Origin: Branchiostoma floridae | Taxonomy: Eukaryota > Chordata > Leptocardii > Amphioxiformes > Branchiostomatidae | Assembly (NCBI RefSeq): GCF_000003815.2 | Contig: NC_049992.1 | Location: 14,738,603-14,802,602 of the forward strand | DNA length: 64,000 bases | Reading direction: 5' to 3' | Notes under the pieces: generated by a model | Seen by the model: the letters and a program-made list of their open reading frames with translations, nothing else | What the model was told of the DNA's origin: nothing | Databases searched by the model: none | Made by a program: the position numbers and the translations under genes | Shown here: piece by piece, positions 11,154 through 56,508 of the stretch | Numbering within the stretch: position 1 is the stretch's first letter | Layout of the letters: the number at the start of each line of letters is the position of its first letter

Positions 11154-11218
11154 CTAGATGCTTCGTTTTCCGGTGTCGTCCAGCTCGATTCCTGAACGGG
11201 GAGGTGCAACTGGCTTCC
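11154..11218 (-). CDS. Gene A exon 8: short C-terminal exon with SH3 ligand motif
   Basis: 65 nt ending in TAG, acceptor TTTCGTCTACAG. Completes GKPVAPPRSGIELDDTGKRS plus I (residues 487-507). PVAPPR (489-494) fits the class II SH3 ligand PxxPxR immediately after the SH3 domain. If intron 7 were retained, the frame would run on to a different short end (NCQVMDLHR). The spliced form is preferred because gene B has a matching exon at the same phase and both end G-K-x-S-I. It is not obvious from open frames, since a longer frame overlaps it in another phase. Confidence 0.8.
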
Positions 11219-14200
11219 CTGTAGACGAAACAAAACAAGGGAGTTTTTAACCTTTTCATTCGCCATATCGGTACAAAATTAAAGCCCTATAGTCACCAAG
11301 CTTCACATCATTCACTTCATTCTCAAGTTAAATCATTCTCAACTTAAAATGACCAATTGACCTAAATGGACGTATGACGTCAGCAACGAGTCAAAGGTGC
11401 CCGGAAGTTGGCAGCGGCCACCGTCTCCGGAAGAGGTATTGTTGATAGCCTTTGACCCGAAAGACTATTATATTTATGCACCTTTAAATCTAACTGACGA
11501 TACGACCTTTCATAACATACACGTAAGCCCCATTGTATCAGTAATATAGTTGTTTTAACAAGCGTACAATTGTTTTGATAAGTAATAGTGCAACGGACTA
11601 CATTTAGCAGCCCCATTCATTTGTCTAATTCTCATTTGACACGTCTTGGTTTTCAATTTTTCCTGCAAGCTTTTTCCAATCTACCGTTTATGTTATTTGA
11701 TCAACCTATCTGTGTAAATCCATTACTTGACAATTACCTTCATTCGCCTTGAGGAAAGAAACGTAGTTGGAGGGGAACAGGCCTATCCTGCCCCTCAGGT
11801 AACCCAGGCACCAGCCGCCATCTTCCCCCTCCAGCACCTCGATGACGTCATCAATCTGGAGGCACAGCTCGTTCTCCTCGATCGGAAGGTACGGATAGAG
11901 CACCTTAGCGTACCTTCTCTCTGTCATATCAATATACGAGAAGAACAGGAGAACATTATAAAACAGATATCATGCCAAACACAAATATTTCATCATTGAA
12001 ATTTGTGTGCAGTTTGAAAGAATGGTAGTTCAATAAACATTTATGAAATACAAAACTGGTTTTATTTTACATTACTTGAGATACGTAACTTACCTTGTCC
12101 CTTCTTGGACTTTCTCATGGTTCCAATTCCCGTGTTCATGGGTGCAGATAGTCGGGGCTTGGCTAAGCAAACAAACATAGTTGGATTCGCATTTGTTTCA
12201 CTTATTTCTGACTTCATTCTATAAATATCACACCAAGATACATTCTCCTACGCAGTGCCTTGCCCGTGACCTATACAATATACCATAGGGAAGCTCTGAG
12301 AAACTGGGCTGAGGTTTCCAATATTGTGGGCGTGGCCTCTAACCATCTGTCAGCCAATCCGAGACTAGGCGTTATCTAAGAAAACGCGTGGGCAATTCGC
12401 TGATTGGTTGTTAGCTGACAGCTGGAGAGAGGCCACGCCCACAAAAGGAGAAATCTTACCCCGGCTTAGCAGAGCATTCCTAAATAATACTGTAAAAGCC
12501 ACCTCCGAAGTTTTACGTAAGAGAATGTCCAACATAGTGAAAATACAAAGACTGATAGTCTCCAGTACTCTAACTACCGTTTAGATTTGACCGTGCATTT
12601 CAATCACAGAAGATAATGCATGTCCTTGTATTCACACGGCGTTGCTGATTGATTGGCGATGAGGAGTTTTGTCAGCCGTCGCCAATCGATTGCCGATGTA
12701 CAGGTTAGCAGCTTGAGATATGGCACATCATAGATATTGACCCAACATATATAATGCAGCCTATACCGTTCTCAATAATGGGAAATAAATTTTATCTTAA
12801 TGTTAGATAATCGATAAGCCTCTAGCAAAATACCTCTATCTCACTGCACCTGGGGCGCCGGTGCGGCACTGCGAGGTTCGAAAGATTACTCAAAGAACTT
12901 CAGAGAATTTTTATACGTTTGGTGTATTTTGTTGTCTTCTTTATCGTACTTTTACGTATCACGCAATATCCATATCATAAAAATATCGGCGAAAATAATG
13001 CAGTGCAGCAATGAACAAACCCCGCACTGCCACACCGGTGCCCCAAGTGCAGTGAGACACCACCTTTAAGGCCCCACTCTACTAGATGGCGGTCGCGCCG
13101 CGACCCACATTGGATGTTTGTAACCCTTCATTTCATAATTGAAATATCTTGCAAAATTTTAAAGTATGACTGAAAAGACGTGCACACGTAGCGTAAAAGA
13201 TACGTTATCTATCTATGGCATTCGTTGAGCCCTCAAACCACGTCCTCTGTCACAGTGCCAACTGTCACAGAAATGGAGGAAGGAAGTGATACTGTAAATG
13301 CAGAAATGTTCGCGGTGGATTAATGTTCGCGGTTTTCGCGGCGACCACTTCACCGCGAACTTAAATCCACCGCGAACATTTTTCTATTAAGGTATTACAC
13401 TGCATGCAGTCGATGGTGTTACCGCGAAATTAAAACCACCGCGAAAAGTCATTTTTCCCGCTACCGCGAAATTAAATCCCCGCGAACTTAAATGCATTTA
13501 CAGTGCTTTGCACATGCTTCTGGAACTGGAAAAGCCATACCTGGAACCTTGGGTCCCTCCTCAGACTTCTCGTCAGTCTTGTTCGGCTCCCTCTTCCCCA
13601 GGTTGTAGTAGAAAGCGAACTTTGTTTTCTCTGCCCTGTGGCGGCGCCGCCGGATGTAGCACACCAGCAGGATGAAACAGAGGCTGACCCACAGGAACCC
13701 CACAGTCACTCCGATCACTATGGCAACCGTGCTCATATCAAGGCCTTTGGCTGGTGCTGTGGGTGTACACATTTGCATAATTAGTCCTAGTTTGTTCATC
13801 TGTTCATACATTTGTAGTGGCTAGTGACACTTAGGTCAGTAAGTGTATATTGCTGATTCAGGAAATGAACGTATTCTTACAGGCAGAGGTTGCTAGCAAG
13901 CAAGGAGGTTAAATTTCTTTAACCCCCTTGTAGCAAGTTAGAAGTTATTACCCTTCAATATACTCGAGGCACCTCCTTGAACAAGGTGCGCTGCCAACGC
14001 ACTTGTGTCAAGCTTGCGTCACTGCGGGGTTCGTTCACTGCGTCACTGTTTTGTTATTTTCTCTGACTGATAATTTAGATATTGCGTAATACGTAAAAGT
14101 ATGACTTAGAAGACGACAAAATACACAAGAAGAAAGAAAATTAATTCTTTATCTTAAATTCGTTATTGGAACAGGAGGTCAACTGTAAAGCTGCAACAAG

Positions 14201-17200
14201 CTAAGCCACAGGAAAAGTTGTTAGTCGATCCCAGTTGCTTATCTTGTTAAAGTCTAGCTTATTGTCTTCAATGTATTAAAAAATTGCACTGTTTCACTAG
14301 AGACAGTGTGTCAATGATCGAGTACCAAAAGACATTATTGTACTGACTGGTAAAAATTACATGTAAGTTCTAGTGATGTTTTTCTGGTAACCTTGAGTTA
14401 GTTCTTTAAAGATGGCTACAGCTACCACTTTTAATCACCGTGAAGGCAATACTAAGTCTTGCACTTAACCAATATAGTTAAGAATGTTTCGACCGGATCT
14501 TATTTTCAAGAAAATCGTCATAAACATTTCATCAAGAAAATTGTCCGAATCTTGTCTTCCAAACACGATCCAAATTTAAAGGGGAAAATCCAATCTATTC
14601 CCCCTTTTTCGTCTTAAATTCTGAAATCTGAAGACGAAAATCTTCATATTAAAGTCTAAAAAGACTACGATATAAAAAAAGTAAAGACACTGAGAAATCC
14701 AAAAAGACAATTCTGGAAATGTACATTGCCCAACACTTACGGCCAATGGTGAGAAACACCGGTTTGGCATCCGGTTTGTCTATGCCGTTCCAGGCTTTAC
14801 ACATGTAGGAGCCTGTCTCGTTCATCCTGGTGTTGTGTAGTACCATGGTACAGGACCGCAGGTCACCGGACACGGACTGCAGCTTGGACGGCATCACCAC
14901 TCCGTCTCTCGTCCATGTCATGTTGGGGAGGGGGTTCCCTTCGGCGATACACTGTAGCGTCACGCTCTCTTTGGCTGGGACCGTGTGTGCTTCGGATATG
15001 CGTATGATGGCTGCATTGTCTTTGAGGAGCGCAAGAGAACAGAACAATCTATTACACATCATCTACTACTCTAGATTACACTTTGTAAGTCGATCATTCA
15101 GACCCGTCTGCTTAGTGGTACAGTGGAAGCGACTTAATTGCACGTCGGATAAACGCACACTTCGGTCAATTGCACGGATTTTCCAAATCCCGTGGCGGTG
15201 CGGTACAACTGGGTAACTTCGCATTATCGCACACACCGGATAATTGCACGGAATTCGCTGGCAAATTGGGTGTGCAATTAAGCGGCTTCCACTGTACATA
15301 GGGCATCAAGTTTCCTTTGTTTTTCAGGAGCAGGGTATATTTGTTTGCAGGGAGAGGCTTCCTTTTTAACGTGCTCGAGTCATTTAATCAAACACAAGAC
15401 TCCCATTTTACGTCCCTTTCGTAAAATGGGTGCAGCCCCAACCGTGATCCATGTTGATCCATCTAGGTTTGGACCAGGATACCCTGTTACCAACTAACTG
15501 GAGCCTGGAGGTCAACTGTAAGGATACAATACCAGTTGAGCTACATGGACATCCCTCAGGTATGCTTCAACTAAATTTATATATCATTCCCCACTTATGC
15601 TTAAGAATTGTGATACATTTGTTGTAGCGATATGCCAGTGTACACGTCATTGCATACGATTGAGAAATAGAACTTGACAGGCAAAAAATGCAGTCAATGC
15701 AATCTGCACAAGACCGTTGACTCACATAATACGTTCAAGGACATGGCGCTTTTAATATCCTTATCCTTGGCCGGGTGGCTAACTGCGCATGTGTATTTCC
15801 CAGCATCCGTCCTGTCCACACTGCGGATGACGAGGTTCGGCGACTTCAAAGTTCCCGCCGTGTACTTCAGGTCATCCGGGGTCAGCCTCTCTATGGGGAC
15901 GCCGTTCTTTTGCCAGGTGAGTGACGTGATGTTGGGAAACCCGTTTCTGACGGCGCACGTCAGGGTCACGCTCTTGCCTTTTGTGACGACATGGGGGTTT
16001 GATGGGCCGACCCGCACTGTCGGTGGCACTGAGGTGAGATAAAGGAAGTCATACTGTAAATGCAGACATTTTCGGGATGGTTTTATATTCGCGGTTTGCA
16101 AATTTACCGCGAACTTAAAACCACCGCGAACATTTTTCCATGGCAGTAAGAGACTACAGTGCATGATGTTACCGCAAATTTAAAACTACCGTGAACTTCA
16201 TTTTTCCCACTACCGCGAATTTAAATCCCCACGAACTTAAAGGCATTTACAGTATATAAAGTTATGTATTGGTAATAACTCCTAGGTCTCGGGATATAAC
16301 GGCCATGAAATTATTGAAAAATGACCGACATCCGATCTCACTAATATCAATATTAAAGGAATTTTGATAGATTTTGATAAGTAGGAAATGGCAATACATA
16401 TACTGTAAGCTGATTATTAGACTATCCAAAATGAATAATGTTCATCGAAAATTGCATATAAAATACATATTTTGGCTTTTAAAGGGCATCGATTCTGAAA
16501 TATGCCGCAGGCCATATCGGCCTTCAAATGATTAAAAAATGATACTGCAATATCATCATTCAACCCACACTAATATTAACCAATAAACATATTTCATAAG
16601 TAAGGAAGAACAACACTTATAGCTTGGGAGGATTATTTCAAATGACTAACTTTGGTCAAATTTTATATAAGGCAATTGCAAAGGTAGCAATACATGTAAA
16701 CTCCTCTTATTTGCATTAAAATGAACGAAATATAATACATATTGACCATGCATATGGCCAGTGCAATACCATCAATCAACCATTATCAATATAAAGGAAA
16801 TGACACATGGTGATATGTAGAAAAGAGCAAAATGTAAGAGGACTTTTGATATTAACTAACTTAACCTGAAAATTTTATTAAAACTATACAAAATGGCACA
16901 TGCAAGTTGAATCCGTACATAAGTCGTAAGTAACATTTATTTCTCCAGTCCGTTATATGTGACACTATTTTACAGAAGGCTACCTCTAAGAGAAAAGTCG
17001 ATAAGTCTCTATTGAATTGGGCACTTCGAATAAATATTTCAATTCCATCAGATAAGTGATGACTGGAAGTCATAAGATATTCTTGGTCCTTCTTTGGGTA
17101 ACTTTTCTTGTATGTAACTCACAAAACGCGTAGATGAGATTTTAACTTAACTTGAAATCTACGGAATGTAATTTTCTGCCAAATATCAAAAACATTATGT

Positions 17201-20200
17201 TTATGATATCTCAAACATTATTAAATGGATACAAAATCCTTGTAGAAGTCTTGCACTTGGATCCATCTTTAGTACGTTACATGATGAAATATCAGCAAAA
17301 ATAGATTTTCAACCTAAAATCCATAATCATCATACAAAATCACGTCAGCTGCACACATAACTCATATTACACCGGAAAGCCTTTTACAAATACATATGTA
17401 TTGACTATTTTTATTGACCCACAGCAAATGATATTATTTCCTGCTCAAATATTCTTCCTAACCCGTACGGTTGCTATCCCAGAATTATATTTCATCAATT
17501 CCTCAATAATGTCATTACAACACTTCTAAATTCTCAACACGACGGTTCGGGTCACGGTAAAAGGGAAATTATTGGAAACATCATCCATTGGGTACAGCGC
17601 TGATTAGTTTTATTTCTATTGACCAGTGGTGGAGGTACAGGGGTCAGTGGTGTGGGTGAGGACCTCTTTGGATTTGAGTCGACTTCATCAATAACAAGGT
17701 GCAGTGCATGCGAGAAGTCAATTAGGTCGCGGTAGATGAGACGATAAACGTTAAATAATGCAGGCGACATTTGTAACTCCACCTCTACGCTCTCCATTAA
17801 TGCCAGCCCGGGTGCCATTACTTGTGAGAATGAAAGTGTATTTATTGAGCCTTCCACGGGTTTATCTTTTGATTTAATCTGTATGGAGCGAGCTCGGATT
17901 GCAGGACCTAATTTATCCGTCGGATCGATGAAAGCTATCTACGCTGGACAGCGAGGCTAGGTCTGAATCAGAATTGCACGGTAACTGTCTGACCCGCCAA
18001 CCCAATCTCCCCTTCTTTACCGACCGACTAGAACGTAAAGTTTGCAGCCTCGCCCGTGAAATTACTTTGCACTCCAATATATATCGTCGCGAATTCGAGC
18101 TGCGGGTATGAAATTATTTCACGGGGCTTGATTTGTTTTGTAACTCTTTAGAGCAAACCAGGTGTGAACAAGCCCCTTCATGATATATGAGAATCGTTTA
18201 CACGGAAGGCTGAGTTTTCTTTTAACCTGATACAAATTATGGCTAACGGCAAGCTAGGGATGATGGCAAACGTTGTGAGGGGTCAGAGGTGAACAGGAAA
18301 TCATCTTGTGTCGGTAACATCGTAGTGACGGAAATCAAATCAACACTTCGGTGATGTTACTTTTAAAGGTGGCACGTCCTTCGCCACATTTAAACTTACT
18401 GTGTCAGAACCAATTCAGGATGCTACATTTTATTTTCCAATATTTTAACCATAAAGTCACAAGGTCACCACTCGTCAAGATTTCACAATGACCAAAAAGT
18501 TTTCTGACGTTTGGTAAAAACTTGGTGAAAACTTCAGATAACTTTTAAAACTACATATGGTTCAGAATAGAAATAAAAAAAAGTTTTATAAAAATGCTGT
18601 TGTTCTTGCAACTAATTCGGAAGAGTATAATGTCCCAGATTTCCAATACAGAGAAGCGTGATGTCTATAATCATTAGCCAAATGACGTTGAGCAAAAATA
18701 AGGCAAAAGAAGTAATGAAGACACACTGGTCATATTTTCTCCATACAGTATACACCATCTGTGAGTTCTCCATATAGCAACAAATGCGGTCAAGTGTACT
18801 AGAGGTTTGCCTGTTAGTTTCAACATGACCTCAGAAACGTTTAAAGGTGTATAGGATTAGACTATCTATCCGTTATACAGTACTTGTCTCGCTCATGCGT
18901 CAGTTTGATACTATTTATACATGATAATGCCTCGCCCATTCAATGGTTTATTCGGTGGTTAGAGGAACAGACATAGACTTATGTCACTATATACACCCCA
19001 GGGTGGACTATTGACCCATACGGTGTTTTGGTTATACAGAACTTGTCTCACGCATGTGTCAGTTTGATAAATTGAAATGCTTCACTCACTCAGTGGTTTA
19101 TTCGGTGGTTGTAAACAGCAAAGGATCGGGCATTATGACACCGCATAGACCTAGGGCGGGTCAATAACCCTTCATTAATTACACATCAGATAAAAGACAT
19201 TAGAACTCTCTCAAAACTCACCCATGACCACCAGCTCGACCTGTGCCTCCGTTGTTTGTAAGTCATCAGTGGTTAACTTCAGCACGTAGGTCCCGGCGTC
19301 TTCCCTTCTGGTGTGATCCATTCGCAGGGATGCCTGCTCCTCCAGATGGACCCTTCTTCCATAGTTCCACCCGGAGTTAAACACTCCCGTGTTGGGGTTG
19401 AAGAGGAAGACGGGCCTCCGTTCCTTGGTGTTGGCCCTGTCGATGACGCTCCACTCGATGAGGTTGATGCGTCTGTTGGTTGAGTAAGCGGCGGGAAGGA
19501 CGACACCTTTCCCGACTATTGCGTTCACGCTTCGCGGTAAGGTGAGCTCTATCCCGGGCTGGCCACGAACAACTGTACAGAAACAATCACAAGAAATCAT
19601 TGAAATGATTTCAAACATTAGACAACAATTCAGTATAGTTTTCTCAGTTTCAACCCCATATTATTCTTTTTACATATCATGTTATGACAACCTTACTGCT
19701 GTCTTACCAGATTCAGTTGTCAATGCTGTCAATCAGTTTAAGGCTAGACTAGACAAACACTGGGAGTGTCGAAAGTATGCCACATGAAGAAAGAAGATCA
19801 GGACACTACAGGCTGAAGTCTTCTATCCTGGATGTGGTATAAAGGTCTTCTTCATTCATTTGTTAAATGAATTATCCTATTAATGAAAACTTGACCTACG
19901 CTTAATAGCAATTACCCAAGCAACTGGATCTTGAGTAATTGGTAGCTGGCATATCTTATTACATGGGTGTCTAACCTTTGAAACACTGACGTATATCTGT
20001 CCTAGTGTGACAGTACGACAAGTTTACTTTATGCTGAGAAAATCAGGTTGTCGAAACGTGTGTAAAGAAAAAAGTATACAAGAATATAAAGAATGATGAT
20101 AAGGTTGCGTACTGAGGAAAGTATACATATATGAATTGGTTTACCAAACCGACGAAACTATTTTTATTACGGGTAAGACTGCGACAAGAGTACTAGTTCT

Positions 20201-29340: not shown

Positions 29341-29568
29341 AGTGGTATCTCACTGCACTTGGGCCACCGGTGCGGCATTTCAGTGTTCAAAAGAATACAG
29401 ATTTTAGAGATGAACTAATTTCCTTACGTTTTGTGTATTTTGCTGTCTTACTTTTAAGTAATTGCGCAATATCTAAATTTTTAAAAATCAGCGAAAATAA
29501 CACAATAGTGCCGCAATGAGCGCGCCCCGCACTGCCGCACCGGTGCCCCAAGTGCAGTGAGATGCCAA
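29341..29568. mobile_element. Palindromic MITE, CTCACTGCACTTGGGGC family
   Basis: Left end GGTATCTCACTGCACTTGGG, right end CGGTGCCCCAAGTGCAGTGA. The centre carries TTTTGTGTATTTTGCTGTCT, as in the other copies. A 66-codon open frame on the minus strand covers part of it and is not a gene. Confidence 0.8.
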
Positions 29569-44260: not shown

Positions 44261-44508
44261 AAGTGCACTCCCAATGCACTTGCGCCATGCTTGCGTCACT
44301 GCGGGGTTCGAAAGGTACTCAACGAATTTCAGCCGCGATAAAGAACGGATTTTCTTATTTTTGTGTATTTTGTCGTCTTCTAGGTCATACTTTTATGTAT
44401 TACGCAATATCTAGATTATAAAAAAATTGGAGAAAATAACAAAACAGTGACGCATTGAACGAACCCCGCAATGACGCCAGCTTGACGCAAGTGCAGTGAG
44501 AGTGCACG
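44261..44508. mobile_element. Palindromic MITE, CTTGCGTCACTGCGGGGTTCG variant
   Basis: The ends AGTGCACTCCCAATGCACTT and, inverted, the right end GTGCACTCTCACTGCACTTG match. The centre carries TTTGTGTATTTTGTCGTCTT, shared with the family. It lies just downstream of the last coding exon of gene B, in the presumed 3' UTR. Confidence 0.75.
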
Positions 44509-44551: not shown

Positions 44552-44613
44552 TTAGATACTCAGTTTTCCCTTCCCTTCAATGTTTGTAAGCTGTGCCGCC
44601 ACCGCCTTTTTCG
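44552..44613 (-). CDS. Gene B exon 8: short C-terminal exon
   Basis: 62 nt ending in TAA, acceptor TTATGTTTTCCTGCAG. Completes AKKAVAAQLTNIEGKGKLSI (residues 491-510). It aligns with the last exon of gene A and shares the G-K-x-S-I end, but the PxxPxR motif of gene A is absent. The last three residues L-S-I fit a class II PDZ ligand pattern; in gene A (R-S-I) they do not. Confidence 0.78.
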
Positions 44614-47600
44614 CTGCAGGAAAACATAAGATATCATTAGTATGAAGAAAGAACGAGCCGGTATTAAGAAGGAGCCTATGAGTCTGTAGAAGGAGAAACA
44701 TGGCGCGACAAGGTTATCAGGGGATAGCCCTGGTGGATGTCGATGGGACTGAAGGAAAATAGCATTTGATATATTGATACATAACACTCGGAGTAATATT
44801 CATGTATTTATGAGATTGTTTTTATTAACCATGTTTAGAAACCATGTTTACTGCATTACTACCCTTTGTATCTATATGCCTGTACTTAGCCCGATAAGGC
44901 ATGAATGTGCGATAAAGGCTATTATTATTATTATTCATTACTAGTCTTACTCTGATATGATATGATATCATGGAAGAAGAATGGTTTGGAATGTATAATT
45001 TATGCCTTCTTTATACATAGCTTCTGTCTGTTTCGTTCATTAACTTCATACTAACTACATAGAGTCAAACGCTTAATGTGTAGTAATGTTAAGGCAGTAT
45101 CTCACTGCAGTTGGGGCACCGGTGCGGCACTGCCACGTTCGAAATATTACTCAACGGATTTCAGAGATAAAGAACGACTTTTCTTACGTTTTGTGTATGT
45201 TGGTGTCTTCTTAGTCATACTTCTACGTATTACCCAATATCTTAATCGTAAAAAAATCGGCGAAAATAACACAACAGTGCTGCAGTGAACGAACCCCACA
45301 GTGCCGCACCGGTGCCCCAAGTGCAGTGAGATACCGCTTTTAAAGAGATAAGGTGACCCTACCCTCTGTAGTGGGCAGAAACACTGCGTAATTTGAAGGG
45401 AACAGGCCTATCCTTCCCTTCAGGTAGCCTAGGCACCAGCCGCCATTTTCTCCCTCCAGTACCTCGATGACGTCATCGATGTCCAGCTGCAGCTCGTTTT
45501 CGTCTGTTGGTGAGTACGGGTACAACACTCTGGCAAACCGTCTGTCTGTGAAACGGTGTTACAAATAGTGTTTATTGCACAGCAATTGTACAATGTACAA
45601 AGCATGCTATCTTATATGTTACGTTGCAACCACTCTATGAGACTAATGTACATAACATTACAAAAAAAGGCAATTTTTTTCCAGTAGAATACTACTTCTT
45701 TGTGCTTTAACGGCTAAGGGTAAAATTTCAAACGCTTATGCATCTTTATATATGTTGCTCTATATGTATGTTGTACAATGCAGGGGTTGTCACATGTTAA
45801 TATGTATCTATATACATGTAAGTACTGGCCAAAACCCACTATGCGGTATCCCGGGAAGGTAGTTGAATTTCCGATTTGAATCAAGTATTCCTGGCATGGC
45901 GTAAAATGACAGACACTGCGTACATGTTGAAGTAAGAGCATAAAAGAAATTGGGACAGTCAGAATGTGATATTCGTTCTTTAATGATGTGCTTACAGTTC
46001 GAGAATTCGAGCATTCGAGAAGCACTATACAAATTACACAAATAATTTTAAAATGAACCTACCTTGGCCCTTCTTGTTTTTTCGAAGGGTGCCTATCCCT
46101 GTATTTAATGGAGACATCTTGGGTTTGTCTGTGGTGAAAAAAAGGAGGAGTTAAATTAAGAAAATTTTTTTCTTTATATCTGAAGTTCACTAAGTAATCT
46201 TTCGACCACTACAGTGCCGAACCGGTGTCCCAAGTGCAGTGAGATACTACCTTAGATATGACAGATGAAGCTAACAGCAGAAGCTCCAAAAAAAGCAAAA
46301 TTTATGATGATAACAGAAATAACAAATATAACAAAAGTTAATAATAAGTGAGCCAGTTATTACAATCAGTCTGCCCTTCCACAAGGCGATATGATAATAT
46401 ACTTTGTAAAAGAAATGTACATGACGAAGAAACCATTCAAAATTCAAGGTACTAGATTTTCTACTTTTATGTACTATATGAATCATAGCTAGTAAAACTG
46501 AAAGGCCTTCTGTTTCGGTACCATGAGTGCAAATTAAAAAACAAAAAACAAAATTGGATTCATTTTAAAGTACATTTCAGATTTTGAAATACCATTGCAT
46601 GCAGTATGCTCCGTACCTGGTGGTTTCGGACCGTCTGTTGTGGATGCTGTAGCGGCCGTCTTGTCTTCAATGGCGCCCTCCCCCCTGCCGATCAGATTGT
46701 AGTAGAAGGCGAACTTGTTTCTCTCCTTCTCGTGTTGTCTCTTCCTGATGTAACAGCCCAGGAGAACCAGGCACAGACCCAGCCACAGACAACCCACCAG
46801 GACCCCAGTGGCGATGGCGATCGTGAACATGTCCAAACCTTTTGTAGGTGCTGAAGGAAAATTGAATATTCAAACCAGACTTTATAAGAAGAAGAAGACG
46901 ATATGGTATAGCGATTTGATGTTGACAGTACTATTATGAGGACTCCGATATTTACTACATAACGAGTGTGAAACGTGAGCTGTTAGTCATTTTTTACACT
47001 GTGCGAAGTGACATTTAATTCCCATAATGATCATAAATATACGGCCAATCCAATTTGTTAGCGACGACTGTGCGTTACTCGCCAAATTTCCTCTACGCTG
47101 TCACTAATGCTACATACTTATTGATTACTAACAACCTAGCTTTTATCATCTGATGAAATATTTGACCAAGATGTAAGATGTAAAAAATATATTTGACCAT
47201 AAACTTACGTCTGACTGTCACAAACAAGGCCTTAGTGTCCCCATCACCGATACCATTTGTGGCGGAGCATTTATAAGATCCCGTGTCATTCATCCTCAAC
47301 ATGTCGAAGACCTGAGAGCACGCCCGTAGGTTGTGTGGTAGGTTCTGAGGCTTGCAGGGGAGTCGGACCCCGTCTCGGGTCCACGTGACGTTAGGGAGGG
47401 GGTAGCCGTCAGCGATGCACTCCAGGGTGAGCACGTCGTCCGCGGTGGCAATCAGAGACTCGGAGATTCGCGTTACACTAGGAGGATCTGGTAAAATTCA
47501 AGATTCAATCAAAACATGTTATTAAAGGTGTTATCTCACTGCACTTGCGTCAGGCTTGTGCCACTGAGGGGTTCGTTCGCTACGTCACTGTTTTGTCATT

Positions 47601-50600
47601 TTCTCCGATTTTTTTACAATGTAGATATGGCGTAATAAAAGTATGACTTAGAAGACGACAAGTTTGAAAGTCGTTAGGCATTTTTCCAACCCCGCAAGCG
47701 TGACCCTGACGCAAATGAGATACCACCTTAACCCTGTAGGACAATACATCATTACAACAGGGAAAAAGAGTGTCATATTTGGTATCTTTACAAGGTACAT
47801 GTGGATTATTTGATTACGTCATTGCCATTATTGAACATATAATAAGGTCAGGAAAGCACATGAGTGCACTCGTAGTTCTATTCTTAACAGCAAAAAAAGT
47901 GAAATATTTCCATATTGCAAATTTAGCAAACGGCAATCCTTTTTTCTAAGGAGAATATTTGTTTATTCCCATTGAGCAGACTGTGGTCATCTCACACCAT
48001 TCCACATAAAAAGCGAGCATGCAAAAAACTCCATTAATATGTCAATGTGATTCTGATGCGCTCAGTTGGTTAAATTCACATGTTGTCAACTTCACAACAT
48101 CCATCAATGCAGCATGCACTACGAAAATGCGTTTGATGTGTAACGAATGGAAACATGTGTAAACTGATGGGTGAATATAGATAGTTCATGAAACTTTTAT
48201 TGATATACATGTGTAAGGCTGTTTGTAGAAATGAAAAATAGAATTGAATTTGCAAAAATATATGCAAGTAATGCCCATGTATCTAGTCTTTTATTCAATA
48301 TTTTTCGTTTTGAAAAGCTGCCCGGTCGGGACCGTTTTTGAAATGTGGCGAAGTCCTTACGTGATGTTTAAATATGCAAACACCTACATTGAACTTTCAG
48401 AGTCAAGCTGGCTTTGATGGGTCGAGACGAGGCAGGATGTCGTACGGCACACGTGTACCTCCCCGCGTCCATCCTGTCCACAAACCGCACGACCAGAGAC
48501 GGCATCTTCATCGTTCCTCCCGAGTACTTCATCCCATCCAGTCTCAGATGTTCTACCGGCATGTTGTCCTTCTCCCACCACAAGGACGAGATGTTGTTGG
48601 GCCTGCCGTTGAAGACGGTACACTTCAGGGTCACGCTTTTACCGGATGTGACGACGAGTGGACCCGGGGGACCAACCTTTACTTCCGGTGGCACTGATGG
48701 GCAAGATGATATTCAATTGTTATATTTTGCAAATTATTGCCCGTGGGCCGATTGCAGGTGACAAAAAAATGAAATACAAACATTAGCAACGGTAAAGACA
48801 AAGTGGAACGAGAAGAAGAAAGACTGACTGCATATACATGTCTAGGCCACTGCAGCAACAGAACACAGTGATCAGCAGCAAACAATGGTAAACATCACAG
48901 TAAGCGACTACTCTAGTCTAAAGGCTAACTCTAAAATGTGACTTATTGGGTTTGACTTCCTTTTTGAAGAAGACGAAGGATCCCACTTTTTTCTGTATTG
49001 TTTGGGTTTTGTGATGTTAAGACAGGAGTTGTCTTCTTTTTGTTTGTAAATGCGGAGTGATTGGGATGGAATTTGGTGACCTCTTTTAACCTTTTTTTTC
49101 TGTTCTCAATGTTGAATAGATGTTTGAAGAGCAAACAGATCTACCAGTAAGTTAATATAAACTCATAACACTTATGATTAATTCGTGATAAAGACAACTA
49201 AAAAAAGTCAAACCTAACCGAACTTTGAGACTAATAAAGTCGAAATCTTTTCCCCAACACTACGTATGATTATAAATCGTACACAATTTAGCCTCTAGAA
49301 GAAATGATAGTATATGCCTAGCTTTACGATAAACCAGTCACCTGGGTAACGCTGATCCGCTAAAAAGAACATCGGAAAACGAGCATCAACAGAGCTTTCA
49401 TGCATAACCGTGAAATGACGATTCGATTTTTATGCCATGCTCTGACTGTATCTTATGTTTAAGGATGGGATTTTCCACTGAGTAGCGATGAGTGTATTGG
49501 ATAGTAACACGTGATCCCGGGAGAACCATCATGCCTGAAGGCGCTAGAGAAACTCGGCTGTGATTTATCTCCTTGCCACACCGTGTTCAATTTTCCGTAA
49601 AGGTCACGTCTTTCAAGAGATAAACGCGTCTTAGTCTAAAATCCATATCCCGACTCAACAAGAACAGTTAATAAAAACCTGCCCACCCTCGGGTGTACAT
49701 GGCGCAAAATTAGGCTTTCAGGCAACAGTGGATTTAACATCATCTCGCTTCGTCTTCTGATGAAATAGACTGGAGGATAACTTTGTGGCAGTCAGTGAAA
49801 AAATGGGAGGAATATTTATGTGTAAAATTGCGACTGTTACACCGTAGTAAGCCTGCAGCAATATCTGTTATTGCTGGGATATTTGAAGAATAGGATAACG
49901 TCAAAGAAGCGAAAATATGTGACTATCCCGTTGATTAGTTCTAAGTACCGTAGCCCGCAGGACATCCATTCGTACAAGGCAATATGACAGCTGTAATGAA
50001 GAATCGGATCATGTTATGTAAAGCCCGAGGCCACCATAAGATAAGCATCTTAACGTCTGGAAGACGGATGTTGCTGCCATTTTGTAGAAACATGGTGAAG
50101 TAAACAGGCGGATGCTGATGCTGACAGTCAAATTATACAGAAGAGTAAATGCCGGGTATTCCAACTCATGTCTACTGATCTGTATTCTGATGGTTGAACG
50201 AGGTAATTTATTGACTGCGCCATAATTAAAACGAAAAGGTCACCAGCAGTTTGCCGTTGACCTTCATACGTCCTGTTATAATGGTCTGCATTTGAAATAT
50301 TGTCACAGACGTTACCATAACGTACAAATATATTGTCAGCAGTTGTTAGACGAATGTGAGAATGGTAGATAGCTATCTAGTCTGCTTTATACTCTATCTG
50401 CATGCTTTCCTGAGTGGTGGGACTCTAATATAGATATTCGGTTAATGGCCTAGTGTGTCATTTTTGTTTGCCTGTATTTGGCACTGTATGTATTTACTAC
50501 ATGCCATGTATTCATGCTAATTATTGTGTATGTTTTCTAGGATTCAACCGCAAAGATGCGGTGGCTACTGAAACAAGACCTGGCTAAATAAAACAGAAAT

Positions 50601-53600
50601 ACATAATAATTTGATAAATTTCCAATCCCCATAGAGGCTTAGACATGCTTAAATGCATATATCATACAACAAGTGTCTATGACTGTTATTACCTACAAGA
50701 ATACAAATTACTAGTACTCCTCTTGCGTTTGCGTATGTTGAGTACACAATCTCAATCAAACCAGCCTAACGTAAAGGCCAGCAAACTGAAATATGACACA
50801 TCGCCACTTTCGCGTTCTTTTCGAGTTTTTTTCCGCTGACAAGACATAATCCCGAATAAGCCCATGAATAAGTGGAATCATCCCACTATGGACGAAGATA
50901 AACCAGTTTGAGCTACTCACTAGGTTTCAAAGCTACAACCGGAGCCTTATAAGTACGGACTCACCTAACACCACCAGCTCAGTGATGGCTTCTTCAGTGA
51001 CCAGATCATCCGTCATGATCTTCAGGAAGTACCTGCCGGCATCACCTGAAGCCGCCCGCATGATCCTCAGAGACGCCTGGTCCTCGATACGGGCTCGACC
51101 AGCAAACTGCCCGTAAGATTTGGAGTTTCCTAACAGGGGGTTATAGGTGTAAACTTGGGTAGCCTTCTGGTCGACGCTGTCTCGTTTGATCCACTCGATC
51201 AGGTTCAGCTGCCTGCTGGTGGTGTAAGTGGCCGGGATAACGACATCTTCTCCGGCTATGGCGTTGACTTTTGCCGGTAGGGTCAGCTGAAGTCCTGTTT
51301 GTGCTTGGGCCGCTAGAGAATGAAAAGTAAACAATGTACATCAAGCACGTTTGAATTAAATGCCGAACATTTACATTTGTCGCAATGCAAGAGTTACTGG
51401 ATACGTTTTGTAAATGGTTAAAGGTTTTAGATACCATCCGAAAATAACTCGTATATGAATTTGTCAGTTATGAGGTTTTGTTTCTTCCACGCATCACAAA
51501 TCGAGGTCAAGATGATGGTTACGTGATAAAGTTTGTTTTCTTTGCGATCTTATGTCGCAATGATGTCATAAAAGTTTTCCTCATTTCTGCCTGGTCACTC
51601 TCCCTTTACCTACGCCAGCTACCCACTCACTGAATATGCACATAGAGGGCAACCCTAATATATCATCGTAGTCTATAGACGGTATTGATTATTCCAAAGG
51701 TCAAGACAGCATTAAAGCCTTCAATCTAAGCGATAGTAAAAAGTAATTTTCATCCTCTTCAATATTAACTGGAGGCGGACACTCTGTGTTATGTTGGAAT
51801 ATTGCGTTTGACAATCCATCTCGTCGTGCTGACCCTTCCGACCGCACCGGGGAGATACCCGGAATGAGATGGATGTTACTTCATCGTGTAGGTAACCCCA
51901 TCATCGCCATAGATTAGCCCCAAATCGATTTCTCTCTCTTCTCCCAAGCAATAGCGATCCGTCATCTTTCTGGTCTGTATATCACAGCGACGACAGCCCC
52001 TAAAAGGAAAGCCAATTCTCATAGCTTTAAGAGTAGTCGGAAGCTGTACCGGTGGCTTGGCGCCAGCTATGATTACCCGGTCTTCCTAGAAGGGCACATA
52101 AATTTGGAGAAAGTGCGAAGTTCTCCCCATGGCTGTCTATTATCTTGATTGGATATATTCTGTACGTGAGCGAGTGCCGTATGTGGATTCATATCTAGGT
52201 CAGAGATGGAACATCAAACCCATTTCTCCGGGAACCCATGGAATACTAACTAGCGTCAAACGATCCATCTTGCCTTCTGCAGATTGGATGTTATTCATGC
52301 AGCAAAATGCTGATTTGTTTTCGAGGCTGTGTAATTAATGGGCTATTCCTAAGAGGCATTGCATCTTAAAACAAAGTAGACAGGGAAAATATCAGAACAG
52401 CGATTCCTATTACGGTTATTCATGTATTCTCAAAACCAATTCAAGTTATATTTGAAGATAGTGCTGGTGAATCCCTAGCGTTTAACGAAAGCTGATACAA
52501 ATTTGCAACACGGCACGTGAGTATATTCCCAAGCGGAAATTATGAAAATTAACGAGGCTGGCTTTGTAACAGACCTGAAAACAATGGGGATAATCAACCA
52601 TATCTAATACCAAAGACGATTCGCAACGCTAAGCAATTATCATTCCCACACTAGCTGGAAACGCATGGAAATAGCTTTATGGGCACAATTATCTCGTTCT
52701 TTGATTCAGGGACCAAGAAAATTACATGCCTTTGGTAATTAACCTGGCTATTGCTGTATAATGGGGCCTTTATCAGCCATACCATCTGGTGAGGGGATTT
52801 TCGATTTTCCTCGCTACTTTGCTACATTTATACAAAATCGAAGGCCACAATCTTTCCTCTTTGTCATTCTAATTCCATCCAAATACTTTGAACCCGTGAT
52901 CGTTGGAGTTTTAATTCTAAGTGTGGATGTATTTAATCAATTATTGCGGAGTATTAGTTTTCCACGCACGTGCCTCATTACGACCAGCCGTTGCTGTTGC
53001 ATACCATTATAAATTAATGCGATTTACCGCCGAAATTGCTCGAGGAGTATCGTCATTGATCATCGTGTTGAGGTGACAAGATGGATTCCCTGGAAAAACA
53101 AAGCCCCAAACAACGTTTCTCTCCCCCTCTCTTTCTCTCTCTCTCTCCCTCTCTCTTTCACTCTAGAAGAATATTGATTCGTAGTTGAGCTGATGTACAC
53201 TATGAAATTTGCTGTATATTTTGACGGGCTATCTTTATCGTATGCGTTCGTATTACAAGGTGGTGAATGAAACCATGAAAAATACAATTTTGAAATGATT
53301 GGTTTTTAATTGCCGACTCGCCAACCTTAATATTTCATGTGGTCTTAAGGGAGACAAGGGCGTGAATACTTAATTGCTCATATTCTGCTTGCCTTTAACC
53401 AAGGTCCCGACGTCAAATACTTACCAAGGGAGAAATAAATAAAAAATGCACGGCTAGAAAATTAAAACAAGCTACAATATAAACATGAAAAAGAAATGTA
53501 TTCATGACAGCATACTCGGTGTAGATCTCCGGCACAATCAGGTAGAATTTCTTTCTACTTAACGGCGAACGCTAAGTGACTGTGTAGCGACCAAGACTGG

Positions 53601-56508
53601 ATTCGTGAGACCCTAAATTCTATGATTTGAATAGGATGCAAGATCTAAAACAAAACTCATGAGTTCAGGAAACAAAACGTATAAAATTATTCCGTATCAA
53701 TAAAATTCTTTGTGCTATATATCTGTTAAATGTTTGGTTGCTTAGCGCTCGCTCAACAGTCGAAGCCTCTAGTTGAAAAGGGGCTCTAATCCTGATTGTC
53801 AGTTTTGGTTTCTCAAATCCATTAGTTGTTTGTTGCGCTTAATGGATGTTTTAATTTCAGAAGCATTAGATCTATTCCCACCAGGGGGTCCCAGGCAGGT
53901 TACGTTGCGTCGCGACGGTACGGCAGGAGATGTCATGTCTTAAAACTTTGTTTGCCGTTGATGCATAGTCTACCATCTGTTCCGCCAGGATGCTAACTCC
54001 AGAGTCTATAGCATCTTCCGGGAATGCACAATCATGGAATTTAACTCAATACTAGGAAATATTGCTTCCAAAAACTGCGACGGGACGGCAGGAGATGTCA
54101 TGTCTTAAAACATTTTTTTTTGCTGTTGATGTATAGTCTACCATCTGTTCCGCCAATATCCTAACTCCAGAGTCTATAGCATCTTCCGGGAATGCACAAT
54201 CCTGGAATTTAACTCAATACCAGGAAACATTGCTTCAAAGTGCGCTTTCCCTTATCACCAGTTCTACCTCTCGTTACCATTCCTTAACAGTAGTTACTGA
54301 TCCATTTTGGGCCAGTCTTGAGTACCCGATTGCCCAATGATTGCACGGGATGAAAATTTGCAGGAAAAACCCATCCGCCCGTATCCTCGTAAAGCATCCT
54401 TTCAGAACGAAATAGGCTAATCGATTTGTAAGGGGAGGGGTAAGTCCGTAACAACCGCTGTTTCATCTAGGATAGATTTCCTCGGATAAAACCCTTAAAA
54501 TAGACTGGCCAAGCCGAATCAATATATAGGCAGGCCCGATGAATTGCCTTGCATATTTCATGATGACAGGACATAGTTTTTAGGATAATGTGGTGTAAAC
54601 TAGGTTAACAGCACAGTAATAAAGCGGTTGCCCCATCTAACATCCACCCTAATTACTTCTAGTAGCTTCCTTTAGTTTAACATGCCGGGGTTCTTTATTT
54701 TACCATTCGGTGTTCAAAGGCTCGTGTAGAATCCTAACTATCACACGCTCAGAGATATCAATGTGGATAGAAAGTCGCAAAAACACTCCAACATGTTGAA
54801 AAATAGAAGACTAATACTTTGAACTGAATCATGGATGGGATTCTATACTTGCGTATTGATTCTACAGTTGCATTTTCTATATTTCAAACAACCTTTCCTT
54901 ATCTGTTCTCCCGGTTACCATTTTATTGATGCGCCCTTCTACTCTGTATGTTTTCTTGCCCTAAGGATCTTAACTCCGATTGGACACGAAAACATTAATC
55001 TTTAGCGATCTGCCTTTACAAGTAGCCGACGAACCACATCTTTGTCCATCATTCTGCCCCCTCCGGTAACTTCGGAGTCCGGTATGGATATCCGAAGATG
55101 ATAACCAACCGTCGTAAAGCTTCGCTACCGGCACCGATTTGTGCATTTTCGATTATATCCCGGGCCCTCGAAGCCAGATAATGTTGTCTTTCTTTTATCA
55201 CTTCTAACAAGAAAAGCAGTTGCAGTCCATGGCGTTAATAACGGTTATTTCAAAGCTCTCTTTCTTATCGCTTGTCTGTTAGCTACGGACTGCGGGCGGT
55301 GGACTGGCTGTCCTACCAGAGATAAAGCAACTTGAAAAGGGACAACCGTTCAAAGGTTGTCAACAAATCCCACGTGCTCTTTACGGGGGTTTAATAGATG
55401 AATTTCCTTTCTTCATAGCGTGTGTACCACTGCGATGTGTCAACAGGAGGTCTCACTCTTGCTGTTCTTTCATGAATTATTCATAAGAAAGAGACACAGA
55501 AAATTATTCTCTTCCTGCTACTTTGGACCTGTAAATTTCCGCTTTTCTTTGGAAAATGTTCGTTTGGGAAATCGATCTCGGGTCGAATTTAGATTCCCGG
55601 ACAGTGACTTCCAGGAAATACATCAATGTCCATTTAGGAGCGTTAACACCCGATGTGTCGAGGAAAGGCATCAATAATCAAAACGGAATTGCTCCTACAA
55701 TAACACCGAGCGCCCACAGTAAGCCTTACGAAACGCTGGCTCAGGGAATTGTCAACACAAAATTTACAACACACAGTGTAATGTTGTATAGGAATAGGGA
55801 GGTGCGATATAGAGATGTAAAGCCGTAATGTTAAGAAAATGCCGTGATAAAGGAGCTCGTATCTTGGCCCGGCAGCCTGCTCGGTTACAACATCATAATT
55901 TGTACTCTGTCGGAGATAACAGCTCTATCGTCAGCGCCGCCTGGGCAGCAATCTAAAAGGATGAAGTCCATTTTGAGAAAGTCCTGGTTCTGCTTTGAGA
56001 TGGATGGTGAAATGGTCCACCGCTTTGTCTGTGTAATTAAGACGGTTTTCCACAGACCGTGTGTGTTGTAGAAGATTAGCCAACCGCATCGTTTGACGGG
56101 CTAACCGAAACGGACCGCAACAATGGCCATGTACGCCCGCATCTTTTGACATATTAGTCACACTCTCACCGTCCGTACGCTTGCAAATGGGGAACAATCT
56201 ACTTCCAAATTGGAAATCAGAAATGATTCTACAAATACAAATTAAACTAATGAACGATCAAGAACTGTTTGCAAGGGATATATACCCAGATCGCTTTTGC
56301 TTTGACGGTTTAACTCCTAGCTATGAGGGGATTGACAATAATTACCGTTTGACCTAACAAAAGAACAGGAAGACACGGTAAATGAGAAAATGTTTTAGCC
56401 CTCTGTGACACAGCTGTGTGATGGAAAATAACAGGACACGAAGTGATACTTACCTTGCAATGACAACAAGAAGGAAAGCAGCGTTGCTGAAGCCCAAACG
56501 ACGTGCAT
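44552..56508 (-). CDS. Gene B: Ig-Ig-Ig transmembrane receptor with cytoplasmic SH3 domain
   Basis: Spliced coding region of 1533 nt (510 residues), exons in transcript order 56508-56454, 51312-50965, 48693-48388, 47487-47209, 46850-46617, 46128-46063, 45545-45363 and 44613-44552. Domain plan as in gene A: signal peptide 1-18, V-like Ig 19-134 without the disulfide, Ig 135-236, Ig 237-329, transmembrane helix about 340-364, RKRQH stop-transfer, FAFYYNL with Y379 and Y380, linker 408-429, SH3 430-490, and a tail ending GKLSI. Every intron is phase 1 with GT-AG borders. It is a tandem duplicate of gene A, about 17 kb upstream of it on the same strand. The cytoplasmic SH3 is more conserved between the two than the outer domains. 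The ligand is unknown. Confidence 0.88.
44800..44938 (+). repeat. Retroposon 3' tail with (att)n
   Basis: The phrase TGCCTGTACTTAGCCCGATA then GATAAAGGC followed by ATTATTATTATTATT looks like the 3' end of a non-LTR retroposon (LINE or a SINE sharing its tail). No reverse transcriptase frame remains. It lies in intron 7 of gene B. Confidence 0.45.
45091..45340. mobile_element. Palindromic MITE, CTCACTGCACTTGGGGC family
   Basis: Left TATCTCACTGCAGTTGGGGC and right GGTGCCCCAAGTGCAGTGAG are inverted. The centre has TTTTGTGTATGTTGGTGTCT. Its right edge lies only about 16 bp inside intron 7 from the donor of the gene B SH3 exon. Confidence 0.82.
45363..45545 (-). CDS. Gene B exon 7: SH3 domain
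   Basis: 183 nt, phase 1-1, acceptor CCGTTTCACAG, donor GTAGGG. Residues 430-490: RVLYPYSPTDENELQLDIDD and VIEVLEGENGG, then WCLGYLKGRIGLFPSNY. All groove residues (both tyrosines of LYPY, tryptophan, proline and tyrosine of PSNY) are kept. Reading through the donor would give a short end RVTLSL. Splicing to 44613 is preferred because it preserves phase and the conserved C-terminus. Confidence 0.92.
46063..46128 (-). CDS. Gene B exon 6: cytoplasmic linker
   Basis: 66 nt, phase 1-1, acceptor TTTTCACCACAG, donor GTAGGT. Encodes DKPKMSPLNTGIGTLRKNKK plus GQ, which aligns without difficulty to exon 6 of gene A. Basic, no domain known. Too short to be seen as an open frame. It is supported by phase, borders and the paralogue. 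Confidence 0.85.
46209..46251. mobile_element. Fragment of palindromic MITE
   Basis: CCGGTGTCCCAAGTGCAGTG followed by AGATACTACC is the right end of the CTCACTGCACTTGGGGC family. The left part is missing. It lies in intron 5 of gene B. Confidence 0.6.
46617..46850 (-). CDS. Gene B exon 5: transmembrane helix and juxtamembrane tail
   Basis: 234 nt, phase 1-1, acceptor TTTCCTTCAG, donor GTACGG. Residues 330-407: PPTKGLDMFT stalk, a hydrophobic helix rich in Gly/Leu/Cys, RKRQHEKER stop-transfer, then NKFAFYYNLIG with the same tyrosine pair as gene A. The rest, ending DGPKPPG, is 6 residues longer than in gene A and has a PxxP motif. Confidence 0.9.
47209..47487 (-). CDS. Gene B exon 4: third Ig domain
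   Basis: 279 nt, phase 1-1, acceptor AATTTTACCAG, donor GTAAGT. Residues 237-329: RISESLIAT leader, VLTLECIADGYPLPNVTWTR with cysteine and tryptophan, and NDTGSYKCSATNG with the second cysteine. NVT and NDT glycosylation sites equal those of gene A. An extra cysteine pair seems present inside both copies (RSC/RAC before strand E; only gene B has LPCK), which is worth noting. Confidence 0.9.
47525..47729. mobile_element. Palindromic MITE, CTTGCGTC variant
   Basis: The left end AAGGTGTTATCTCACTGCAC and right end GCAAATGAGATACCACCTT are inverted, with the family centre AAAGTATGACTTAGAAGACG. It lies in intron 3, starting 38 bp from exon 4 of gene B. Confidence 0.75.
48315..48362. repeat. Fragment of a short foldback element
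   Basis: GCTGCCCGGTCGGGACCGTT followed by TTGAAATGTGGCGAAGTCCT is a diverged form of the right end of 3793-3966. It lies about 26 bases from the end of exon 3 of gene B. Confidence 0.35.
48388..48693 (-). CDS. Gene B exon 3: second Ig domain
   Basis: 306 nt, phase 1-1, acceptor TTGCCCATCAG, donor GTAGGT. Residues 135-236: VPPEVKVGPPG leader as in gene A, SVTLKCTVFNG with the first cysteine, SLWWEKD with the tryptophan, and DRMDAGRYTCAVRHP with the second cysteine. PNNIS is a conserved glycosylation site. Canonical C2/I-type domain. Confidence 0.9.
48694..50964. other. Gene B intron 2 (2.3 kb)
   Basis: No extra exon or clear transposon was recognised. The sequence looks single-copy, with an AT-rich stretch near 48940-49100. 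Confidence 0.4.
50965..51312 (-). CDS. Gene B exon 2: V-like Ig domain
   Basis: 348 nt, phase 1-1, acceptor TTCATTCTCTAG, donor GTGAGT. Residues 19-134 match gene A in LTLP, VNAI, NLIEW (W59), QASLR, DAG-Y and TDDL-T-EA. The positions for both disulfide cysteines are Ala (A46 in VIPATY) and Leu (L115 in RYFLKI), exactly as in gene A, so the loss came before the duplication. The C-terminal strand TDDLVTEEAITELVV is reminiscent of CEACAM-type N domains. Confidence 0.9.
53118..53163. repeat. (CT)n microsatellite
   Basis: Pyrimidine run of CT repeats with a few CCC interruptions. Confidence 0.85.
53912..54240. repeat. Tandem duplication, period about 165 bp
   Basis: GGCAGGAGATGTCATGTCTT followed by TAGTCTACCATCTGTTCCGC and TATAGCATCTTCCGGGAATG occurs twice, starting near 53912 and 54077. 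The copies are highly similar, so the duplication is relatively young. Confidence 0.9.
56454..56508 (-). CDS. Gene B exon 1: start codon and signal peptide
   Basis: 55 nt encoding MHVVWASATLLSFLLSLQ plus one base, donor GTAAGT at 56448-56453. The ATG has A at -3 (ACAATG). The hydrophobic core and small residues fit a signal peptide. A longer open frame on the same strand covers the spot in another phase, but it has no domain and is rejected. Confidence 0.82.

Follow-up and report, generated by a model that had tools for sequence, protein, structure and literature searches.

As a rule, immunoglobulin (Ig) receptors depend on adaptors to supply SH3 domains. Among the better-known families, CEACAMs carry an N-terminal V domain without cysteines ahead of their other Ig domains, nectin-type proteins bind afadin through a C-terminal PDZ-binding motif, CD28 has one Ig domain and no known SH3 domain, the variable exons of several protocadherin clusters share constant exons, and VCBPs are not known to have a transmembrane (TM) helix or an SH3 domain.

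The closest described protein comes from the Florida lancelet (Branchiostoma floridae). Table 2 of PMC7286890 lists an IgV/IgC/IgC/TM/SH3 order for this species, seemingly restricted to Branchiostoma, and the accessible part of that paper already proposes adaptor avoidance for this protein. As far as the accessible parts of the other sources go, CEACAMs are known to evolve in concert through gene conversion (PMC7042247), and a CEACAM homologue is reported to be missing from B. floridae (PMC3628338). Clustered protocadherins combine diverged tips with one region that is homogenised by gene conversion and has raised GC3, the measure used for gene conversion in the fugu clusters (PMC1852091), and VCBPs are secreted proteins that consist of V domains and a chitin-binding domain (PMC4757023).

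Two receptor genes with a built-in SH3 domain

The window (the whole 64,000-nt stretch of B. floridae DNA analysed here) contains two minus-strand genes, A and B, rebuilt from its sequence with eight exons each (Table 1). The total frames of 1524 nt (A) and 1533 nt (B) have no internal stop, and all 14 introns are GT-AG and in phase 1, in agreement with the exon number, matched borders and frame lengths given by an earlier sequence-only reading. That reading had also placed Ig domains, TM helix and SH3 domain in one chain and proposed a domain check of both proteins. Run through Pfam, this check recovered V-set, Ig_3/I-set (at least two stretches) and SH3_9/SH3_1/SH3_2 over the cut-offs in A and B, the chain order being signal peptide, V, Ig, Ig, TM, SH3. 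The two proteins are identical in 276 of 511 positions (54%). In A, exon 1 lies 8 kb upstream of the second exon, in B 5 kb, and the exon-1 assignments are the least certain part of the models. No Pfam match at E 0.1 was obtained for the 10 ORFs scanned among the 59 of at least 90 amino acids in the window, no tRNA was found in the window, and no window match reached the Rfam gathering score.

Table 1. Features of genes A and B (positions in the window)
Feature	Position	Strand	Basis or remark
Gene A exon 1, signal peptide	27611..27668	-	ATG, hydrophobic stretch, GT donor; least certain exon
Gene A exon 2, V-type Ig without canonical cysteines	19222..19572	-	reconstruction, Pfam, alignment
Gene A exon 3, Ig domain 2 (I/C2 type)	15726..16028	-	reconstruction, Pfam
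Gene A exon 4, Ig domain 3 (I/C2 type)	14741..15019	-	reconstruction, Pfam
Gene A exon 5, TM helix and juxtamembrane KFAFYYNLGK motif	13541..13756	-	
Gene A exon 6, proline/basic linker	12094..12162	-	
Gene A exon 7, SH3 domain	11738..11920	-	reconstruction, Pfam
Gene A SH3 island, ~90 nt	11763..11852	-	0 mismatches to 25-copy majority sequence
Gene A exon 8, C-terminal tail with PVAPPR and stop	11154..11218	-	
Gene B exon 1, signal peptide	56454..56508	-	least certain exon
Gene B exon 2, V-type Ig without canonical cysteines	50965..51312	-	reconstruction, Pfam, alignment
Gene B exon 3, Ig domain 2	48388..48693	-	reconstruction, Pfam
Gene B exon 4, Ig domain 3	47209..47487	-	reconstruction, Pfam
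Gene B exon 5, TM helix and juxtamembrane KFAFYYNL motif	46617..46850	-	
Gene B exon 6, proline/basic linker	46063..46128	-	
Gene B exon 7, SH3 domain	45363..45545	-	reconstruction, Pfam
Gene B SH3 island	45388..45477	-	10 of 90 nt differ, most diverged of 25 copies
Gene B exon 8, C-terminal tail and stop	44552..44613	-	

The Florida-lancelet protein of PMC7286890 has the same order, IgV-Ig-Ig-TM-SH3, as A and B and very likely belongs to their family, the comparison being one of domain order. The architecture, for which the sequence-only reading knew of no vertebrate example, had already been listed for the Florida lancelet. Of a published family with exactly this architecture, one Florida-lancelet protein is in print; the accessible part of that paper mentions no gene cluster, cysteine-less V domain, YYN motif or SH3 homogenisation. 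As far as searches show, with most subscription papers and all preprints outside their scope, the cysteine-less V domain, the YYN tails and the SH3 island are apparently new.

Members of a large family

The sequence-only reading described a tandem pair, possibly from a lineage-specific family that had grown by tandem duplication. Multiplication by duplication holds, but a pair is too small: to judge from their exon sequences, A and B look like part of a large family of single-pass Ig receptors in the lancelet. The chromosome-scale contig C14 carries 31 ordered units (28 V-TM-SH3, two V-SH3 and one V-TM), made up of 31 V, 29 TM and 30 SH3 exon matches on both strands. The V-(TM)-(SH3) order is strict, with none of the 90 matches out of place, which rules out chance assembly of exons. 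The unit with V at C14:15064992 and TM at C14:15060199 has no SH3 match in nearly 10 kb downstream. Complete exon sets are available for A, B and nine other genes and the remaining units are covered by some exons only; each unit examined is a complete gene. Relatives also occur on contigs C2, C7 and C16. For the relatives on contig C15, the one 9.8-kb stretch examined shows an SH3 exon only.

The copies are strongly diverged outside the SH3 exon, with median identities of 0.41–0.54 compared with 0.78 for SH3. The V domain (0.41) is not specially diverged relative to the TM and linker exons (0.43 each). In all exons where the ratio is computable, dN/dS of medians lies within 0.26–0.41, so that diversifying selection is not shown by this measure in any of them.

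Canonical cysteines are missing from all 10 V exons aligned. In a single-sequence PDB search, the V domain of gene B matched amphioxus VCBP3 best, with the CEACAM1 N domain at E 2.6e-5, and a profile of the 10 exons matched JAML, CEACAM, CD276 and nectins. Despite the VCBP match, the VCBP layout (V and chitin-binding domains, secreted) does not apply to A and B. In the genome itself, a fragment of VCBP3 matches contig C17 in three pieces, with identities of 96, 87 and 95%. The likeness to CEACAMs lies in the N-terminal V domain without the canonical disulfide, but these have an ITIM/ITAM-type tail or a GPI anchor in place of the SH3 tail; in ruminant CEACAM1 paralogues, as far as the accessible source describes them, the extracellular part is homogenised and the TM helix and tail are not, the reverse of the lancelet family. 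Nectins and nectin-like proteins share the V-Ig-Ig-TM order, but A and B lack a PDZ-ligand C-terminus for afadin and V cysteines, and have SH3 in the chain. Clustered protocadherins are cadherins, not Ig proteins, and several of their clusters have variable exons with shared constant exons, whereas the lancelet units examined are complete genes.

The cytoplasmic tail

In most genes the tail tyrosine motif reads F[AS]FYYN[ML]. Among the 28 TM exons examined, YYN is kept in 21 and YYNM in 17, the other seven tails having YYD (four), YYK, YYS and YCK (one each). A DNA pattern for this motif has 23 matches on C14, each at a family TM exon. Judged by eye, YYN[LM] falls outside the ITIM consensus used for comparison. 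The YxNM type of motif in 17 of the 28 tails recalls the CD28 family, but A and B have three Ig domains and an SH3 domain, and ancestry is not claimed. The accessible part of PMC11599192 describes YxNx as a GRB2/GADS site. Judging from the motif, adaptors are probably still used through CD28-like YYN docking. Because a motif of this type is kept in 21 of the 28 tails, it seems more likely that the built-in SH3 adds to SH2-based docking than that it replaces it; the SH3 domain in the chain stands, and the adaptor bypass once proposed for it is too strong.

The SH3 domain and its island

The SH3 domain resembles those of CD2AP and CIN85 and the C-terminal SH3 of GRB2; a tyrosine, tryptophan, proline and tyrosine of the ligand groove do not vary across the 12 genes compared. 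A three-SH3 gene on contig C9, in which the second SH3 exon looks phase 1-1, appears to be CD2AP/CIN85-like and is consistent with a role as SH3 donor, without proving it.

In 25 of the 30 C14 SH3 exons, a stretch of ~90 nt is near-identical, silent sites included, across 14 Mb. A 93-nt island query has 32 matching places: 25 with at least 89% identity, all of them SH3 exons of the C14 family, and seven with 73–78%. All 32 lie at SH3 exons, and a mobile element as the source is not supported. In island genes, silent-site identity is clustered beyond expectation, as under ectopic gene conversion; the five C14 genes without an island show no such effect, the observed value being reached in 296 of 300 permutations. 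Silent identity in the best window of 30 codons is 0.86 for SH3 and 0.45–0.51 for V, Ig2 and Ig3. The TM exon contains a second stretch of raised silent identity (0.67). An overlapping protein in the 177-nt SH3 stretch is not supported: each of the 25 copies has stops in four of the five alternative frames, and antisense frame 0 stays open in nine.

Alternative explanations

Gene conversion fits the island best. It is possible, though unlikely, that the island is instead an element within the coding exon that is conserved at the DNA or RNA level, such as a binding site or small-RNA target. Such an element would account for the presence of TGACGTCA in 22 of the 25 islands and of the AANATGGCGGC word in all 25 (presumably a CRE and a YY1 word, respectively), for the occurrence of TGACGTCA in seven of the 24 SH3 exons examined outside C14, and for an island divergence that is much the same whether copies come from one cluster or from different ones and that changes little with distance. 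For conversion that decays with distance, the partial correlation is weak (r 0.22, p 0.027). An invariant CRE site is ruled out by the three islands that lack it. Against an element stand the failure of 19 of 45 site pairs in the four-gamete test; silent identity that changes gradually over several codons, without sharp edges; the ATGGCGGC word in three of 24 other SH3 exons, one of them within a separate three-SH3 gene; and the absence, by eye, of both words from the five island-less genes. RNA structure is weak as well (z of -2.09, -2.13, -2.07 and -1.53 for four sequences), with almost no compensatory pairs. GC3 rises from 0.655 before the island to 0.795 within it, an increase seen in 23 of the 25 genes; this gives gene conversion moderate support, because other exons reach 0.66–0.74 (TM 0.74, Ig3 0.71; 12 genes).

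It is very improbable that the SH3 exon is a separate small gene or minor isoform, with the main receptor stopping after the TM exon. A TM-SH3 distance of up to 14 kb in one unit speaks for such a split; yet all 30 C14 SH3 exons have a same-strand V exon at most 45 kb upstream and 28 have a TM exon within 20 kb, the order is strict, every exon border of A and B is phase 1 with splice signals, and a linker exon was located in all 12 genes searched (nine by a motif-guided scan, one of these without a clear donor). The sequence data do not separate adhesion from immune recognition as the function of the receptor. We regard it as unlikely that the genes form a homophilic adhesion family of nectin/CEACAM type that serves tissue or neural wiring and not microbial recognition, with the SH3 domain taking the place of afadin and ponsin in tethering the receptor to actin regulators. 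The adhesion receptors among the V-profile matches (JAML, CEACAM, nectin-1/3) point that way, as do the possibility, discussed in the accessible part of PMC7286890, that the Florida-lancelet protein is an ancient homologue of nectins, and the combination of diverged tips with a common inside that recalls clustered protocadherins (PMC1852091, accessible part). The missing V cysteines argue against it, and so do the C-termini, GKRSI in A and GKLSI in B, which differ from the nectin-type PDZ ligand.

Proposed mode of action and implications

Overall, we somewhat favour a large Ig-TM-SH3 receptor family with a ligand-facing V domain, docking through phosphorylated YYNM and an SH3 output kept common by conversion. 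The V domain would face a cellular or microbial ligand, as the tips of CEACAMs and nectins do. Clustering of the receptor may lead a Src-type kinase to phosphorylate YYNM, which could then recruit SH2 proteins, for example GRB2 or PI3K. The built-in SH3 would bind proline-rich cytoskeletal, endocytic or signalling partners or, in an autoinhibitory latch, the linker or C-terminal proline stretch of the same receptor. The SH3 output surface would be kept common by ectopic gene conversion, with the rest, including the recognition tip, drifting apart.

To our knowledge, the lancelet is a chordate without rearranging antigen receptors. With considerable doubt, the ~30 cysteine-less V tips (~40% identity) on one shared SH3 output module can be read as a recognition repertoire, a protocadherin-like or paired-receptor-like code.

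A receptor family with its own SH3 domain and a CD28-like tyrosine motif lends itself naturally to testing what the adaptor contributes, and the SH3 island is well suited to telling gene conversion apart from selection on the DNA itself within a coding exon. If the V tips indeed bind many ligands and the SH3 output is common, the lancelet, at the base of the chordates, would provide a germline repertoire of receptors.

Structure of genes A and B

Genes A and B, rebuilt from the minus strand of the window, each comprise eight exons (signal peptide, V, Ig2, Ig3, TM, proline/basic linker, SH3 and C-terminal tail) separated by seven GT-AG introns, all of phase 1, with intact frames of 1524 and 1533 nt, respectively. 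V-set, Ig_3/I-set and SH3 domains score above the Pfam cut-offs in both, so that the eight-exon Ig-TM-SH3 structure described in the sequence-only reading is correct; exon 1, which lies 8 kb upstream in A and 5 kb upstream in B, is the least certain exon of each gene. The two proteins are 54% identical. Each C-terminal exon that could be identified ends in S-[IVL]; those at L021, L023 and L027 (stretches outside the window) are low-confidence guesses. The introns of both genes and the stretch between the genes hold a dispersed repeat, MITE-like by appearance, with pairwise matches of ~70–250 nt at 75–89% identity in both orientations.

Features of the window and of other stretches
Location	Feature	Remarks
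Window 11154-27668	Gene A	minus strand
Window 11154-11218	C-terminal exon	ends S-[IVL]
Window 44552-56508	Gene B	minus strand
Window 44552-44613	C-terminal exon	ends S-[IVL]
Window 12837-13069	Dispersed repeat	
Window 13999-14153	Dispersed repeat	
Window 29345-29563	Dispersed repeat	
Window 44292-44501	Dispersed repeat	
Window 45097-45343	Dispersed repeat	
Window 47534-47661	Dispersed repeat	
Window 7596-8117	Tandem repeat	27-nt unit, ~15 copies, several frames open
Window 63339-64000	Tandem repeat	195-nt unit, 3.4 copies, running to window end
C14:15060199-15065318 (L029)	V and TM exons	minus strand; YYYSD tail; no SH3 match in nearly 10 kb downstream; possibly an SH3-less family member
C14:17105500-17115499 (L015)	Gene g17105	V and Ig2 each divided over two exons, unlike other members read
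C9:7254119-7254439	V-exon match	35%, query 1-107, near the score of C14:14716694 (also 35%, query 1-107); no linked SH3 match

Size and layout of the family

The genes had been taken for a tandem pair; both are real, but they belong to far more than a pair, with 31 units on C14, the contig that carries the window at 14738603-14802602, and relatives on other contigs. In a search of the genome (513 Mb, 431 contigs) for the family exons, the SH3 exon of B matched 64 places at E <= 0.001, namely 30 on C14 (59–100% identity), 14 on C15, seven on C16 and 13 elsewhere. A Pfam search, with 150 of 223 candidates scored, listed 30 SH3_1 matches on C14, identical to the 30 found with the B exon. The TM and V exons are matched at 29 and 31 places on C14, and all matches on this contig, on both strands, follow the order V-TM-SH3 with none out of order, making up 28 V-TM-SH3, two V-SH3 and one V-TM units in groups at 3.8, 6.7–6.95, 14.6–15.1, 15.9–16.0 and 17.1–17.9 Mb.

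All five exon kinds are present in nine of the ten further genes fetched; the V match of the tenth, g6695, falls outside the fetched stretch. The linker exon is found in all 12 genes including A and B, in nine of them via a motif-guided scan that left one (g15126) with an ambiguous donor. Among the other contigs, C2 carries one gene ordered V, Ig, Ig, TM (a weak match) and SH3. Two C16 loci show two Ig exons together with TM and SH3, and a V match lies directly upstream of one of them; a C7 locus, over the 6.5 kb read, shows Ig, TM and SH3.

The SH3 island

The SH3 is the exon that stands apart, and just in part of its length. Median pairwise identity is 0.78 for SH3 (12 genes), compared with 0.41 for V (10 genes), 0.54 for Ig2 (11), 0.46 for Ig3 (12), and 0.43 for both TM and linker (12 each), so that V is not distinct in divergence from TM and linker. 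Median dS runs from 1.94 (V), 1.64 (Ig2), 1.62 (Ig3) and 1.34 (TM) to 0.59 (SH3), and dN/dS of medians (0.26–0.41) gives no sign of positive selection.

An island of ~90 nt is common to 25 of the 30 C14 SH3 exons, and a genome search at >= 89% identity found no place beyond these. Relative to the majority sequence, 20 copies differ at 0–4 nt and five at 5–10 nt, compared with 10–22 differences in the 66 nt before the island and 2–12 in the 21 nt that follow; from one pair of clusters to another, mean divergence ranges over 0–9% in the island (0 being a single pair) and 24–40% in the flanks. Across 12 genes, the same codon is used at unchanged residues with a frequency of 0.85 in the island, 0.48 and 0.41 in the adjoining stretches and 0.33–0.51 in other exons, the expectation from codon usage being 0.42. 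Clustering of silent matches exceeds all 300 permutations in the 25 island genes and is absent, over as many permutations, from the five C14 genes without the island. Silent-site identity is raised too in the juxtamembrane-motif region of the TM exons (12 genes, columns 43 on), at a level (0.67 over the best 30 codons) lower than in SH3.

Origin of the island

We lean towards gene conversion as the source of the island. GC3, a measure applied to fugu protocadherins according to PMC1852091, is 0.795 in the island vs 0.655 before it, a rise shared by 23 of the 25 genes (p 3.6e-5), but the excess is moderate because other exons reach 0.66–0.74. All four combinations occur at 19 of 45 site pairs, and silent identity climbs and falls over several codons. 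Two observations count against conversion. How far apart two copies lie has little bearing on their divergence (partial r 0.22, p 0.027), and the words TGACGTCA and AANATGGCGGC, found in 22 and in all 25 of the island copies, would be explained by a DNA-level element too; outside C14, TGACGTCA is present in seven and ATGGCGGC in three of the 24 SH3 exons read, and because of these occurrences the recurrence of the words may partly be a by-product of encoding common SH3 residues. Analyses of RNA folding and other-frame coding gave little support. Overall, gene conversion is the more likely origin and a DNA- or RNA-level element the less likely one.

Domains, tail motif and proposed mechanism

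The V domain of B resembles the VCBP3 and CEACAM N domains, and when ten V exons are combined into a profile, its matches include JAML, CEACAM, CD276 and nectins; the two canonical cysteines are absent from all ten V exons aligned. A VCBP3 fragment from the PDB entry 2fbo of B. floridae matches contig C17 in three pieces at 96, 87 and 95% identity, the 87% piece containing two stops, as is to be expected if it crosses an exon boundary; the genome is probably that of Branchiostoma floridae or a close relative. The SH3 domain resembles those of CD2AP, GRB2 and CIN85, and the tyrosine, tryptophan, proline and tyrosine that we take to be ligand-groove residues are unchanged in 12 of 12 genes, a further position being Tyr in ten and Phe in two.

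Most copies carry F[AS]FYYN[ML]G[RK] on the inner side of the membrane: among 28 TM exons read, 27 have YY, 21 YYN and 17 YYNM, the tails without YYN being YYD (four), YYK, YYS and YCK (one each). Across the genome, 55 places fit a degenerate DNA pattern for F[AS]FYY[ND] and 45 fit its backward control; of the 55, the 23 on C14 all lie at family TM exons. Five tails (TM exons L025, L027, L072, L075 and L081) contain PPPY, fitting PPxY, a ligand of WW domains. PxxPxK is seen by eye in the linker region of A and B.

The V tip would engage a ligand, and receptor clustering could then lead to YYNM phosphorylation and SH2 docking, while the SH3 domain might bring in proline-rich partners or keep the tail closed via the linker region or the PVAPPR tail of A. 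The CD28 motif YMNM, as described in PMC11599192, contains a PI3K site (YxxM) and a GRB2/GADS site (YxNx). The idea that these receptors bypass an adaptor is weakened because the YYN motif is kept.

Relation to earlier work

The Ig-TM-SH3 order, initially described as not known from any vertebrate receptor, has been published: PMC7286890 presents one Florida-lancelet protein with the same domain order, apparently restricted to Branchiostoma, and suggests that its SH3 spares the need for multiple adaptors. PMC3628338 gives amphioxus as lacking a CEACAM homologue. In ruminant CEACAM1 paralogues, according to PMC7042247, it is the extracellular part that gene conversion homogenises, but not the TM and tail, whereas the lancelet family has the opposite pattern. 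A literature search covering few subscription papers found no description of the family or its clusters, of the V domain without cysteines, or of the YYN motif and SH3 island. The finding on A and B is real and bigger than first reported, its architecture is already published, and the further features of this lancelet family appear new and merit RNA and cross-species tests.
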